Shown piece by piece: positions 9,853-59,907 of a stretch of DNA of 64,000 nucleotides. The DNA is from Sphingomonas caeni. Lineage in GTDB: Bacteria; Pseudomonadota; Alphaproteobacteria; Sphingomonadales; Sphingomonadaceae. Position numbers and translations under genes: made by a program. Within the stretch, counting starts at the first letter, position 1. Every line of letters starts with the position of its first letter. The notes below the pieces were generated by a model that worked only from the letters and a program-made list of their open reading frames with translations, had not been told where the DNA came from and searched no databases. Where the stretch lies: positions 496,001-560,000 of the forward strand of contig NZ_JAPDOK010000002.1 in the NCBI RefSeq assembly GCF_026013415.1, read 5' to 3'.

Positions 9853-10800
9853 GTGCATGGCTGGATCATCCTCGACAAGCCCTTGGGGCTGGGCTCGACG
9901 CAGGGCGTGAGCGCGGTCAAGCGCGCGCTGCGGGAAGGCGGGTACGGCAAGTACAAGGTCGGCCATGGCGGGACGCTCGATCCGCTGGCGACGGGAGTGT
10001 TGCCGATCGCGATCGGCGAGGCGACCAAGCTGGCCGGGCGGATGCTCGACGGCGACAAGGTGTATGACTTCACGGTGAGGTTCGGGGTCGAGACCGACAC
10101 GCTCGATCTCGAGGGGAAGCCGATCGCGGAGTCGGACGCGCGTCCGACGCCGGCCGAGATCGACGCGGTCCTTCCGCGCTTCGCTGGCCCGATCGAACAG
10201 GTGCCGCCCGCCTATTCGGCGATCAAGGTGGATGGCGAGCGGGCCTATGATCTGGCGCGGGCGGGGGAAGCGGTCGAGCTGAAGGGCCGGAGCGTAACCG
10301 TTCACTCTCTCTTCCGTCACTCCGGCCTTGAGCCGGGGTCCCGCTATAGCTCCGCGTTGGACAGCGCCACCCCGGCTCAAGGCCGGGGTGGCGGGTTGGA
10401 AGAAGTCACCCTCACCGCCCATGTTTCCAAGGGCACCTATATCCGCAGCCTCGCCCGCGATATCGCCCGCGCTCTCGGCACCGTCGGCCATGTCACCATG
10501 CTCCGCCGCACCAAGGCAGGTCCCTTCACCCTCGATTCCGCGATTTCGCTGGACAAACTGGCGGATGCCGCTAAGGCGCGCACGCTTGAAGACTGCCTCC
10601 TGCCGTTGAGGGCGGGGCTGGACGACATCCCGGCTCTATCCCTCACCCCCGATCAGGCAGGGCTGCTCCGTCAGGGGCGGGTCTTGATCGGGATCGCCGC
10701 TGACGATGGCCAACACTTCGCGCTGCTGGGCGATACGCCAGTCGCGCTGGTCGAGGCCGATGCCGGGGAAGTCCGGGTCGTCCGCGGGTTCAATTTATGA
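9853..10800 (+). CDS. truB: tRNA pseudouridine(55) synthase TruB, carrying an in-frame palindromic insertion
   Basis: Converts U55 of tRNAs to pseudouridine. The 315-aa protein starts at GTG 9853 ([16 protein letters not shown]); the catalytic aspartate is Asp43 in [10 protein letters not shown], and [12 protein letters not shown] is the usual substrate-binding motif. Between the strands RSVTVHSL and [14 protein letters not shown] the family normally has a short turn; here there are about 25 extra residues (about 155-181, e.g. [10 protein letters not shown] and [11 protein letters not shown]) encoded exactly by an inverted repeat at 10314-10395. The frame stays open, so the gene looks functional with an extended loop. 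Followed by rpsO. Confidence 0.96.
10314..10395. repeat. Palindromic element inserted in frame within truB
   Basis: Perfect 18-base inverted arms, CCGGCCTTGAGCCGGGGT at 10322-10339 and its complement at 10369-10386, with a 29-base loop. The stem continues outward with G-U-type and Watson-Crick pairs to about 10314 and 10395. It encodes the extra TruB loop. Its layout matches the intergenic palindromic elements of this window, but the arm sequence is a separate family. Confidence 0.9.
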
Positions 10801-10819: not shown

Positions 10820-11089
10820 ATGACGATCACTGCCGAGCGCAAGGAAGCGCTCATCAAGGAACATGGTCTCGCCGCCGGCGACACCGGCAGCCCCGAAGTC
10901 CAGGTCGCGATCCTCACCGAGCGCATCGTCAACCTGACCGAGCACTTCAAGGGCCACGCCAAGGACAATCACTCGCGCCGCGGCCTGCTGACCATGGTCA
11001 ACAAGCGCCGCAGCCTGCTCGCCTATCTCAAGGCGAAGGACACCGAGCGCTACGAAGCACTCATCGCGAAGCTGGGTCTTCGCAAGTAA
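10820..11089 (+). CDS. rpsO: 30S ribosomal protein S15
   Basis: The 89-aa primary rRNA-binding protein of the 30S platform. Starts [20 protein letters not shown] and holds the conserved [16 protein letters not shown] and DNHSRRGLL motifs. Located 20 bases after truB, the usual truB-rpsO-pnp order. A GAAGG ribosome-binding site precedes the ATG. A hairpin with a short T-run follows at 11097-11119. Confidence 0.98.
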
Positions 11090-22447: not shown

Positions 22448-22529
22448 CGTCATCCCGGCGAAAGCCGGGACCCAGAGCCACGCACGATATCGCCTGTTAC
22501 TCTGGGTCCCGGCTTTCGCCGGGATGACG
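22448..22529. repeat. Palindromic element family A, copy 1
   Basis: Perfect 30-base inverted arms (22448-22477 and 22500-22529; core CATCCCGGCGAAAGCCGGGA) with a 22-base loop. Two more copies are at 43539-43620 and 55758-55838. It sits between two genes transcribed on the minus strand, just downstream of hrpB. Confidence 0.95.
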
Positions 22530-22542
22530 ATTCAATTTGGCT

Positions 22543-25029
22543 CTAGCGCCTGCCCTCCGCCCTTGCATCCGCATTTTTGGTGCGCAGCGTGGCCGATGCG
22601 CTGGCGGGATCGTCGGGCCAGGGGTGGCGCGGATAGCGGCCGCGCATCTCCTTGGCGACCGCCGCCCAGCTGCCTGCCCAGAAGCCGGGCAGATCGCGCG
22701 TGGTCTGGATCGGGCGGCCCGCGGGGGAGGTGAGGCTGAGGACCAGCGGGGTGCTGCCCACCATCGGATGCGTGGCGAGGCCGAACAGCGCCTGCGGGCG
22801 CAGCTCGACCGTGGGGCCGGCTTCGGCGGCATAGTCGATTTCGTGGGTCGATCCGGCGGGGCTGGCGAAGCGCGCGGGGGCGATGCGGTCGAGCGTCTGC
22901 TGCCCGTCCCAGCCGAGAATGTTGTTGAGCGCGGTGGTGAGGCCTTCGACGGCGTCGAGGCGGCGCTTTCCGGCGAGGAGCGGGGGGAGCCAGTCGTCGA
23001 GACCGGCGATCAGCGCTTCGTCGGAGAGGCTGTCGATCCCGGCATAACGGGCGCGGGTCCGGAGCGCCTGCGCGGTTTCGGACCAGGGGAGGAGGGCCAG
23101 GCCGTGGGTCCGGACCGCCTCCAACAGCGCCTTCTCGATCTCTTGCGGGTCGGCATTCGAATCGGGGCCGGAGGAGAGGCGGATGCTGCCCAAACGGCGT
23201 TCGCGCAGCGCTTCGATGCGGCCGGTGGCGGGATCGAAGCGGACGGTGCGGCGGGTTTCGATGCGGTGGGCGAACAGGGCCTCGACCGTCGCCGCGCCGA
23301 TCTCCACGGCGGAGAGGATGCGCGCGCCAGCGGCCATGCCCTGCGTCTCGGCCACCGCGAGCCATTCGGCGCGGGCGAGCGACGAGGTCGGGTCGAGCCT
23401 GAAACCGCGCCCGCCCACCGAGGCCCAGGTCTCGCCAGTCGCGTCGCGGCGCCGGGCGATGCGGTCGGGAAAGGCGAGCGCGATGGAGACCGCCACCCCG
23501 TTCGTGTCGAGCGAAGTCGAGACACCTTGGCCAGGCACAGGCTTCTCGACTTCGCTCGAAGCGAACGGTGGGGCCAGGCGTGCCCATCGCTCCGCCAGTT
23601 TCCGCGCATTCTCCGCCCTCGGCCCACGTTCGGTCTTCCAGCGGCGCAGGCGCAGGTCGAGATCGGCGTCCTGCCCGCCAAGGCCGCGTTCGCCGAGCAG
23701 GACGGCGACCTGAGCGGCGGTGTGGGCGAGGCCGATCTCGCCCGCCCGGACGAGCATATGGCCAAGGCGCGGCGGCAGCGGCAGGCGCGCGATGGCCTTG
23801 CCGTGATCGGTGGGGCGGCCATTCGCGTCGAGGGCTTCGAGCGCGGTGAGGCGGGTGCGGGCTTCGGCGATGGCGGCATCGGGGGGCGGATCGAGCCAGC
23901 GCAGGCTGCGCGGATCGGCAACGCCCCATAGCGCGCAATCGAGGGTGAGCGCCGAGAGATCGGCCTCGAGGATTTCGGGCGGATCGAAGCGCGGCAGGCC
24001 CGCGGTCGCGGCGGCTTCCCAGAGCCGGTAAGCAACGCCCGGCCCCTGCCGCGCGGCGCGGCCCGCGCGCTGGGTGACCGACGCCTGGCTGGCGCGCTCG
24101 GTGACCAGCCGGGTCATGCCCGCCGCGCGGTCGTAGCGGGGGCGGCGGGCCAGCCCCGAATCGACCACGATGCGGATTCCGTCGAGCGTCAGGCTGGTCT
24201 CGGCGATCGAGGTGGCGAGGACGAGCTTGCGGCGCCCCTGCGGATCGGGCGCTATCGCGGCGCGCTGGGCGGCGGGGTCGAGGCTGCCATGGAGCTTGTG
24301 GAGGATGATTCCCGGCAGATCCGCGAGGCGATCGGCGGTGCGCTCGATCTCGGCGACACCGGGAAGGAAGGCGAGGACACCGGCTCCCTCGTCCTTGGCG
24401 GCTTCCCGCAGTGCGGTCCGCACCGCGGCGGCGACCGACTCCTCGATCCTGGCCTCGGCGGCGCGGCCGAGATGGCGGAGTTCGAGCGGGTGCATCCGGC
24501 CCTCGCTCTCGATCACCCGTGCGTCGAGCAGGTCGGCGAAGCGGCCGCCATCGAGCGTGGCGGACATCGCCACCAGCCGCAGATCCGGGCGCAACGCGGC
24601 CTGCGCGTCGAGCGCGAGCGCGAGGCCGAAATCGCTGTCGAGGCTGCGCTCATGCACTTCGTCGAACAGCACCGCCGAGACCCCGGCCAATTCGGGATCG
24701 GACTGGATTCGCGCGACAAATATGCCCTCGGTGACCACGGTCACCCGCGTCGCCGCCGAGCGCTTGCTGTCCATGCGCGTGGCATAGCCATAGGTCTGGC
24801 CCACGCTTTGTCCGGCAAGCGCCGCCATCCGCTCGGCAGCCGCCCGCGCGGCGAGGCGGCGCGGCGAGAGGAGCAGGATCTCGCCCGCGCACCAGGGCTC
24901 GCCGAGCAAGACGGGCGCGACCGCCGTCGTCTTGCCCGCGCCCGGCGGCGCGACGAGCACGGCGTTGCTTGCCTCGCGCAGCAGGGCGAGCAGATCGGGC
25001 AGAACCGCGTGGATCGGAAGCGCGTCCAT
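22543..25029 (-). CDS. hrpB: ATP-dependent helicase HrpB, carrying an in-frame palindromic insertion
   Basis: DEAH-box helicase of the HrpA/HrpB group, 828 aa from the ATG at 25027-25029 (MDALPIHAVLPDLLALL). Motifs: Walker A APPGAGKTT (residues 27-35), DEVHERSLD, SAT (VAMSATLDGG), and motif VI QRAGRAARQGPG; the HrpB-specific C-terminal region ends at about residue 815. Residues about 488-511 (FASSEVEKPVPGQG, VSTSLDTNG) are extra and encoded by an inverted repeat at 23499-23567 placed before the conserved FPDRIARRR motif. The frame is kept. The role of HrpB is poorly known (RNA/DNA helicase). A longer start at 25059 is possible but lacks support. Confidence 0.95.
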   Translation of the reverse strand: MDALPIHAVLPDLLALLREASNAVLVAPPGAGKTTAVAPVLLGEPWCAGEILLLSPRRLAARAAAERMAALAGQSVGQTYGYATRMDSKRSAATRVTVVTEGIFVARIQSDPELAGVSAVLFDEVHERSLDSDFGLALALDAQAALRPDLRLVAMSATLDGGRFADLLDARVIESEGRMHPLELRHLGRAAEARIEESVAAAVRTALREAAKDEGAGVLAFLPGVAEIERTADRLADLPGIILHKLHGSLDPAAQRAAIAPDPQGRRKLVLATSIAETSLTLDGIRIVVDSGLARRPRYDRAAGMTRLVTERASQASVTQRAGRAARQGPGVAYRLWEAAATAGLPRFDPPEILEADLSALTLDCALWGVADPRSLRWLDPPPDAAIAEARTRLTALEALDANGRPTDHGKAIARLPLPPRLGHMLVRAGEIGLAHTAAQVAVLLGERGLGGQDADLDLRLRRWKTERGPRAENARKLAERWARLAPPFASSEVEKPVPGQGVSTSLDTNGVAVSIALAFPDRIARRRDATGETWASVGGRGFRLDPTSSLARAEWLAVAETQGMAAGARILSAVEIGAATVEALFAHRIETRRTVRFDPATGRIEALRERRLGSIRLSSGPDSNADPQEIEKALLEAVRTHGLALLPWSETAQALRTRARYAGIDSLSDEALIAGLDDWLPPLLAGKRRLDAVEGLTTALNNILGWDGQQTLDRIAPARFASPAGSTHEIDYAAEAGPTVELRPQALFGLATHPMVGSTPLVLSLTSPAGRPIQTTRDLPGFWAGSWAAVAKEMRGRYPRHPWPDDPASASATLRTKNADARAEGRR
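23499..23567. repeat. Palindromic element inserted in frame within hrpB
   Basis: Inverted arms at 23499-23522 and 23544-23567, matching at 22 of 24 positions (core TCGAGCGAAGTCGAGA), with a 21-base loop. It encodes about 23 extra residues in HrpB. Similar elements (CGTTCG at the outer end, TCGA-rich arms) occur between genes at 46624-46713 and, more remotely, 56775-56932. Confidence 0.88.
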
Positions 25030-25129
25030 TCCGCCCCCATGGCATAGCGGGTGCGTCATCGAAAATAGCTAGGCGTGGCTGCGCCCTTTTCGCGAATCAT
25101 GCGTTGGCGGGCGCAAAGGAGATCGACCG

Positions 25130-43538: not shown

Positions 43539-43620
43539 CGTCATCCCGGCGAAAGCCGGGACCCAGAGCCACATACGACATCGCTTGTAATCCTGGGTCC
43601 CGGCTTTCGCCGGGATGACG
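43539..43620. repeat. Palindromic element family A, copy 2
   Basis: Arms at 43539-43568 and 43591-43620, the outer 28 bases perfectly paired and the same as copy 1. It starts two bases after the serC stop and ends 15 bases before the serA start, so it lies on the serC-serA transcript and may fold there, adjusting the ratio of the two products. Confidence 0.95.
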
Positions 43621-46623: not shown

Positions 46624-46713
46624 CCCCGTTCGCCCTGAGCTTGTCGAAGGGCTGTACCTCTTACGACCGTCGCAAAGAAGAATAGTGCTTCGACAAGCTC
46701 AGCACGAACGGGG
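46624..46713. repeat. Palindromic element family C
   Basis: Arms 46624-46649 and 46688-46713 match at 24 of 26 positions (core CTGAGCTTGTCGAAG), with a 38-base loop. It lies in the 247-base convergent gap between hisZ and the next gene. The rest of the gap (46472-46623) shows nothing I can name. Confidence 0.88.
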
Positions 46714-49504: not shown

Positions 49505-49630
49505 AATCCTCCCCCGCCAGGGGGAGGTGGCGCCGAAGGCGTCGGAGGGGGAGGACACGAAACAGACGTGACCGCCGCCCTCCCCCTCCGTCGCGCTGCG
49601 CGCGCCACCTCCCCCTGGCGGGGGAGGATT
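49505..49630. repeat. Palindromic element family E
   Basis: Long inverted repeat: the outer 29 bases (core CCTCCCCCGCCAGGGGGAGG, itself a hairpin) pair perfectly between about 49505-49533 and 49602-49630, and the inner 14 bases pair again. It ends four bases before the stop codon of the helicase gene. Confidence 0.9.
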
Positions 49631-53078: not shown

Positions 53079-53180
53079 CTCGCCTCACGGCGAGGTTGCG
53101 GCACCGGCCCGCTCCCCCACCCGGCCTCCCTTACTATAGTAGCCTATGGGAGGCCAGGTGGGGGAGCGGGCCGGTGCCGC
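53079..53180. repeat. Palindromic element family D, copy 1, with an adjoining hairpin
   Basis: Arms of 33 bases at 53098-53130 and 53148-53180 (core CCCGCTCCCCCACC) with one mismatch and a 17-base loop. It is preceded by a small perfect hairpin CTCGCC-tcac-GGCGAG at 53079-53094. Copy 2 is at 59643-59725, and a partial copy at 53749-53776. Confidence 0.95.
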
Positions 53181-55757: not shown

Positions 55758-55838
55758 CGTCATCCCGGCGAAAGCCGGGACCCAGAGTCACGGGCGATTC
55801 GCTTGGGGCCCTGGGTTCCGGCTTTCGCCGGGATGACG
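55758..55838. repeat. Palindromic element family A, copy 3
   Basis: Left arm 55758-55787 is identical to copy 1; the right arm (to 55838) differs by one base in the paired region (GGGTTCC for GGGTCCC). It lies between lptB and rpoN, 25 bases after lptB on the transcript. Confidence 0.95.
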
Positions 55839-59592: not shown

Positions 59593-59907
59593 GAAGCGCC
59601 TCTGCCGCGAGCCTGTTGTTTGGGTCAAGCTGAAGCTTGACAGCGGCACCAGCCCGCTCCCCCACCCGGCCTCCCACAGGCTACTAAAGTAAGGGGGGCC
59701 GGGTGGGGGAGCGGGCTGGTGCCGCAATTCTGCGAAAGCAGAATCACATAGGCGCCGTAATCAAGACGAATTTCGTTCGCGCCCTGTCCAGTTTTGGGCT
59801 ATGCCCCGATTCTAGTGGCGCGCTTTTCTGTGCCCGAGAACCTGCGCTTTTCGCTCGGCGCGCTGGTTTTATTGGATTTCAGGGCGAACCGGGAAGACGA
59901 ACAGGGC
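59593..59907. repeat. Divergent gap terC/csp: family D element copy 2 and cold-shock gene leader
   Basis: Family D copy 2: arms 59643-59675 and 59693-59725 (33 bases, one mismatch), 17-base loop that is the reverse complement of the copy 1 loop at 15 of 17 positions. It is flanked by hairpins TCAAGCT-ga-AGCTTGA (59624-59639) and ATTCTGC-GAAA-GCAGAAT (59727-59744). From 59745 to 59907 is the leader of the cold-shock gene, less GC-rich, without a clear promoter. Confidence 0.88.

Follow-up and report, generated by a model that had tools for sequence, protein, structure and literature searches.

The truB gene of the window (the whole 64,000-nucleotide stretch of Sphingomonas caeni DNA that was analysed) carries a head-to-head dimer of CGTC-tagged REP units, in frame, in a hairpin turn of its product. 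It is probably one case of a wider pattern, in which unrelated palindromes would have been inserted repeatedly, filtered into tolerant loops and lost again by internal deletion. Palindromic repeats of several unrelated kinds would insert widely and repeatedly in sphingomonads, and because the copies in genes would survive only in frame, without a stop and where the loop can take 20-60 additional residues, they would accumulate in a few constant “docking loops” of housekeeping genes. Elements there could be lost by internal deletion, leaving in-frame scars, or be replaced by others. Three points are our inference: movement of the repeats as DNA, tolerance filtering as the main reason why sites are shared, and continued activity of TruB with the insert.

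The truB Gene and Its Variable Turn

The gene, its turn and its neighbor are as follows.

9853 to 10800, plus strand: truB, tRNA pseudouridine(55) synthase of 315 residues, carrier of the insert (open reading frame list; TIGR00431, PF01509, PF16198; model match to 1k8w)
10309 to 10407, plus strand: variable turn of TruB between the VTVHS strand and the next strand, site of other palindromes in relatives (alignments, relatives' inserts, AlphaFold2)
10820 to 11089, plus strand: ordinary neighbor downstream of truB, which we take to be rpsO from its S15 sequence (open reading frame list)

The truB frame runs from a GTG start at 9853 to a stop at 10800 and stays open across the palindrome. A profile search matched the product to TIGR00431 with an E value of 4e-65, and an NCBIfam scan of the protein listed only TruB/Cbf5 models. 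The AlphaFold2 model (26-row alignment, mean pLDDT 85.7) aligned with Escherichia coli TruB 1k8w over 285 residues (Z 28.8, rmsd 2.3). In this model pLDDT falls below 50 at residues 160-162 and 166-176, and the flanking strands are predicted at 146-155 and 184-191, which is consistent with a flexible loop between two strands. An earlier note on this DNA had placed the palindrome in frame between two conserved TruB strands, and that placement held. The same note had the insert adding about 25 residues; the gain is rather ~13-23, because the turn has 33 residues in the window and 10-20 in the insert-less ingroup rows described below (10-17 in 34/35 of them and 20 in the remaining one).

A switch in third-position G/C at the insert, striking at first sight in the window, was considered and rejected, being general to that position of the gene with or without an insert: the means go from 0.21 to -0.44 with an insert and from 0.10 to -0.34 without one (p 0.052 for the 25 codons on the 5' side and 0.035 for the 25 on the 3' side).

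Anatomy of the Palindrome

Three features make up the element.

10322 to 10386, no strand: perfect 18-nt inverted arms, 10322-10339 and 10369-10386, around a 29-nt spacer (sequence)
10315 to 10341, plus strand: first CGTC-REP unit, with CGTC tag, 8-bp stem including one G-T pair, CTTGA loop and CC tail (unit scan; model R1, 43.4 bits, E 9.0e-7)
10367 to 10393, minus strand: second CGTC-REP unit, inverted (head-to-head), with the tag decayed to CGCC and the tail to GG (sequence; model R1, 26.9 bits over positions 5-25)

The arms are fully complementary, as first described, and can be extended to 32 nt each (10314-10345 and 10363-10394) at 88% complementarity. Folding of the 111-nt RNA stretch 10300-10410 gave -70.7 kcal/mol (z -7.33), a value that none of 200 shuffles equaled.

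CGTC REPs are multicopy palindromes found mostly in alpha-proteobacteria, with some copies in genes (Di Nocera, De Gregorio and Rocco 2013, PMC3733652). They are described as having a CGTC tag, an 8-9 bp stem, a 4-5 nt loop and in most cases a CCA tail, and as occurring mainly as head-to-head dimers, and are reported to have no link to a transposase (PMC3733652). The first unit in truB is 27 nt long, has its CGTC tag at 10315-10318 and has a loop within this range, while the second unit reads CGCC at the tag. In the 8-bp stem the first pair is A-T and the second C-G, where CGTC REPs almost always have A-T in both. The tail reads CCC in the first unit, so that CC fits and the third base differs, and GG in the second. 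The head-to-head arrangement and the multicopy occurrence both agree with the published format. The ends of the element, CGTC and CGCC, do not carry the GTAG tag of RAYT-linked REPs. An Rfam scan gave four matches at E <= 1, none of them at the gathering score, and a scan for promoters and terminators gave no signal above chance.

Palindromes Elsewhere in the Same Genome

The absence of any other copy of the arm from the genome would, according to the earlier note, have spoken against its reading. Such copies exist: exact 19-nt copies of the arm were found at three other places, at one of which a copy with a single mismatch completes the pair, and a covariance model of the single unit (R1, built from 20 units) gave 37 matches at E <= 1 in the 4.10-Mb genome, including 14 inverted pairs with plus and minus starts ~54-80 nt apart. 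R1 models the type with a 5-nt loop and missed copies with a 4-nt loop in glyS and ligD; since its units were selected for pairing, the covariation of the CGTC unit is partly by construction. We inspected 17 element loci and scored 16 by codon likelihood on both flanks, C20:102 being too near a contig end. Among these 16, truB alone had both flanks coding in a single open frame. For RadC and NusB, Pfam searches of seven frames over six loci put the element close to the domain, on its upstream side; the other frames gave no domain.

Further in-frame palindromes of this genome (G000; kinds as defined below) lie in glyS (C), gluQRS (F), ligD (C) and hrpB (H), and the RNase R gene holds half an element. 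At the linker of ligD, the CGTC type C of this genome has a counterpart of type B in genome G017. The hrpB element is the second palindrome of the window in a coding frame:

23499 to 23568, minus strand: TCGAG-type palindrome (H) inside hrpB (22546-25068, minus strand) (inverted-repeat scan; HrpB TIGR01970, E 1e-260)

The HrpB protein and the TIGR01970 profile are about equal in length, and a gain of residues at the palindrome is not evident from this comparison. Among the 49 inverted-repeat elements in a scan of 464 kb, nine were flagged as in frame and three accepted as repeat elements (truB, ligD, hrpB); by our judgment the other six look like chance arms in coding sequence. Seven more palindromes were seen in the window, at 22448-22529, 43539-43620, 55758-55838, 49505-49630, 53098-53180, 59643-59725 and 46635-46702; the kinds among them are CGTC with a CGAA-like loop (three), CCTCCCC, GCGGCACCGGCCCGCTCCCCCACCCGGCC (two) and CTGAGCTTGTCGAAG.

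Recurrence in the TruB Turn of Relatives

TruB rows were gathered from 30 loci, the best 80 loci of a further search and 15 of the 30 loci of a third (window-family loci with the whole turn, plus four outgroups). After removal of the truncated L059 and eight duplicates from these 125, the tree held 116 rows, 110 of them ingroup (L and G numbers are our handles for loci and genomes). In the alignment of many sphingomonad TruB proteins that the earlier note proposed, a recognized palindrome sits in the same turn in 66/110 distinct ingroup rows, which are the closest to the query and not a random sample. The other rows comprise four scars, five unclassified inserts and 35 short turns. The kinds, labeled by pattern and by eye, were distributed over the ingroup rows as follows.

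Kind A (CGTC, CTTG-like loop): 8 rows
Kind C (CGTC, CGAA-like loop): 9 rows
Kind B (CCTCCCC type): 41 rows
Kind F (CTCTCCC-like): 6 rows
Kind H (TCGAG type): 1 row
C then B in tandem: 1 row, L112

Long inserts fitting no kind were found in L057, L123, L157, L159 and L173. The best stem exceeded all 30 codon shuffles in 65/75 insert-bearing rows (10/75 failed) versus 0/35 short-turn rows. When 14 representative inserts were compared by blastn, nine pairs matched at 1e-3, all within a kind, and no match between kinds was found at that threshold, short inserts giving blastn little power. Neither the C insert of L120 nor the F insert of GlyS L353 matched any representative, and since the latter matched no other F, F is a loose class. 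The CGTC, B and H kinds are clearly unrelated, with F as a looser fourth. These three types also occur as repeats outside the shared sites. A scan of truB and its surroundings in 104 distinct loci for inverted arms of 12 nt gave 57 clusters in the turn (48 loci), five elsewhere in truB and 35 outside it.

Two side observations concern single loci. The contig of L175 (G252) breaks off within the truB turn, right after the first bases of an insert. The TruB of L142, titled Microvirga sp. SRT01, groups inside Sphingomonas, so this label may be wrong.

Turnover on the TruB Tree

The TruB tree is a quick one, with 50/112 inner branches weak, and on it the presence or absence of a palindrome needs at least 18 changes. 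The minimum is 17 changes for CGTC/B/F/H, 13 for CGTC/B/H and 12 for CGTC/B alone. Five well-supported (starred) groups, with short branches, mix CGTC and B: L129 with L131/L134; L067 with L040/L042; L060 with L037/L071; L039, L095 and L103 with L091, L098, L100, L101 and L105; and L156 with L161. Single loci illustrate scars and gains, L052 having an in-frame scar versus the intact B element of its sister L053, and L066 having gained a palindrome beside L064 and L106, in a clade otherwise free of them. L039, a CGTC carrier, has a 3' linker similar to those of L098 and L100, two relatives with B elements. As a separate observation, the inserts of L066 and of the window truB are both of the CGTC type and have an identically decayed second tag (GGCG) despite their distance on the tree, which may reflect recombination or coincidence.

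TruB outside the Sphingomonads

Extra residues shared with distant TruB families would have spoken against an insertion, as the earlier note pointed out. In the family of G149, of the same phylum, none of 140 genomes exceeded 11 extra residues in the TIGR00431 region. Three of the 68 matching genomes (80 searched) in the order of G340, a different order of alphaproteobacteria, had a TruB 13-24 residues longer. Two of these three have palindromes in exactly this turn, L195 (G499) a CGTC dimer and L191 (G539) a CAGGTGACAGG palindrome; the third has no obvious palindrome in its extra stretch. The earlier proposal of a lineage whose protein-coding palindromic repeats were taken up, with the frame kept, by a loop of a housekeeping enzyme is supported, the predicted strands and low-pLDDT loop being consistent with it. 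Its picture of a single similar repeat was too narrow, as several unrelated kinds, other genes and another order are involved.

The Same Junctions in Other Housekeeping Genes

B elements were surveyed in four genomes chosen for the kind B insert of their truB: G029, G017, G004 and, in part, G025. A frame open from stop to stop across the element was uninformative in this GC-rich DNA (54/64 were open), so codon likelihood on both flanks was used instead. Pieces within ~156 nt of the end of a stretch went unscored (61/64 were scored in the first batch). Seven of the 87 B elements scored lie in frame inside genes other than truB, namely those for DnaE2, RNase R, biotin carboxylase, GlyS, LigD, LeuS and GluQRS, none of them from the G025 part.

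For six of these genes, LigD being the exception, the flanks, with the insert removed, were joined as one query and searched in 17 genomes of the genus. Among the matches listed, a palindrome was present at the same junction in 31/83 resolved gene-genome cases, the source genome being left out and only resolvable sites counted. The frequencies here and in TruB are unlike those of a random sample, because the six sites were chosen for an in-frame palindrome in one genome, the census genomes were picked for inserts in their truB and the TruB rows are those nearest to the query. The counts for each gene, all among the matches listed, were as follows.

LeuS: 11 without large gap, 5 fetched, 3 palindromes (3/16)
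GlyS: 4 without large gap, 10 fetched, 10 palindromes (10/14; G011 and G018 outside the matches listed)
RNase R: 3 without large gap, 13 fetched, 9 palindromes (9/16; own-genome half element uncounted)
Biotin carboxylase: 6 without large gap, 10 fetched, 6 palindromes (6/16)
GluQRS: 14 without large gap, 2 fetched, 2 palindromes (2/16)
DnaE2: 3 without large gap, 2 fetched, 1 palindrome (1/5; rows <60% identical or incomplete omitted)

A palindrome here means, in 30/31 cases, a stem above all 30 codon shuffles; the RNase R element of G001 was recognized as B by its sequence. A set of 40 fetched stretches all (40/40) had a length divisible by three, as working genes should show. The kinds at one junction, assigned by eye, were B, C and F in GlyS, A, B, F and H in RNase R, and B, C and H in biotin carboxylase. 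Biotin carboxylase L379 has two H elements in succession in one site, RNase R L369 has a long composite insert, and the RNase R junction of G013 holds a 10-residue spacer without a palindrome.

Eight of the nine carrier genes (8/9) act on RNA or DNA (TruB, LeuS, GlyS, GluQRS, RNase R, HrpB, DnaE2 and LigD), a bias noticed post hoc and without a background count. Much of the published lists of in-gene repeats from other bacteria consists of similar RNA/DNA enzymes (PMC3733652, PMC3767692).

Origin of the Shared Sites

Tolerance may not be the whole cause of the recurrence seen at 31/83 junctions among the matches listed, which may need a target preference as well. Hundreds of equally tolerant loops would give little sharing, so either tolerant loops are few or palindromes attract palindromes. 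A more far-reaching reading, which we regard as possible though rather doubtful, is that the site is conserved and not the element: a limited number of fixed housekeeping positions would attract unrelated palindromes through a shared insertion process that recognizes a target structure or an existing palindrome, with constant in-frame turnover. Equally tentative is the idea that target preference, not tolerance, accounts for the sites, an existing palindrome (a hairpin at the replication fork) attracting a newcomer that lands next to or within it and takes its place. Recurrence above that expected from many equally tolerant loops would fit, and the double elements of truB L112 and biotin carboxylase L379, the long composite of RNase R L369 and the linker of L039, like that of L098 and L100, point to palindromes attracting palindromes without proving it. 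Against it, no clean nested intermediate with both outer arms has been demonstrated, and L066 gained its palindrome in a clade otherwise without any (L064, L106). Attraction of this sort is compatible with repeated insertion filtered by tolerance and does not exclude it.

The use of one site by many species could also reflect a single ancient insertion per site that has diverged past recognition, and in Rickettsia the orthologs all have inserts at shared sites (PMC3767692). We consider this highly unlikely for the sphingomonads, where unrelated kinds occur within short-branched starred sister groups, blastn detected no similarity between kinds, the CGTC, B and H types are also repeats elsewhere, and 35/110 ingroup rows have a short turn. 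Since most inserts are strong hairpins (z -7.33 in the window), and a role of REPs in mRNA stabilization has been hypothesized (PMC3733652), the hairpin might instead be kept as an RNA element, for example for processing or stabilizing a truB-rpsO-pnp transcript, with any strong hairpin sufficing. A conserved role of this kind is unlikely because the 35 short-turn truB genes show no excess of structure at the site (on average, a fraction of 0.56 of the remaining places in the gene equals or exceeds it in stability), and other genes show the same behavior. As a general need, a conserved mRNA hairpin is ruled out by these short-turn genes. That the extra peptide itself serves TruB, in RNA binding or regulation, would agree with the predominance of RNA/DNA enzymes among the carriers and with the similar published lists (PMC3733652, PMC3767692); it is very improbable given that the inserts share no common peptide sequence, that kind B is read in more than one frame and that the loop is of low confidence in the model, as if disordered. 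Contigs can end at such repeats, as in the truB of G252, and yet an artefact of assembly or annotation is next to inconceivable, with the insert in frame and the same site filled in many separately sequenced genomes.

Relation to Known Elements

The presence of REPs inside truB has already been published (PMC3733652), as has that of RPEs at shared sites in Rickettsia (PMC3767692). The former paper gives S. maltophilia, E. litoralis and S. alaskensis as species in which the gene for tRNA pseudouridine synthase B contains REPs, and also mentions R. conorii (PMC3733652). The truB element shares with CGTC REPs the tag, 5-nt loop, head-to-head dimer, multiple copies and copies in genes, agrees with them in the 8-bp length of the stem and in the CC of its first tail, and differs in the decayed tag and tail of its second unit. 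A further difference lies in the sites: sphingomonads use one site for unrelated kinds in many species, whereas REPs in genes of one functional category are reported at differing sites, except in recB of Xanthomonas (PMC3733652).

The earlier note had compared the insert with Rickettsia palindromic elements. The link is more than analogy, because the element fits the CGTC REP format to which two R. conorii elements are assigned, RPE-4 as CGTC-4 and RPE-6 as CGTC-1 (PMC3733652). Like RPE-4, RPE-6 and RPE-7, which are described in frame in conserved genes and at the same sites in orthologs, where the groups replace each other (PMC3767692), the truB element lies in frame in a conserved gene. The Rickettsia elements occupy solvent-exposed positions (PMC3767692), and the truB insert is predicted as a low-confidence loop between strands. 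For the shared Rickettsia sites, a hotspot and one diverged origin were weighed and the question left open, the authors leaning to a diverged origin (PMC3767692). The sphingomonad kinds differ from these groups in being unrelated and in differing between sisters; because unrelated kinds share sites in sister species, hotspots are supported in sphingomonads. In a limited search of open-access full text, no previous description was found of sphingomonad in-gene sites shared by palindromes of unrelated kinds. Counts and experiments on free-living bacteria that can be cultivated offer a test of the choice between hotspot and diverged insertion, and the shared sites offer a natural map of permissive loops for inserts of 20-60 residues in housekeeping enzymes. 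The truB element differs from the REPs of RAYT transposases in lacking the GTAG tag, and resembles them in that these too are short palindromes, often dimers, found also in genes (PMC3733652).
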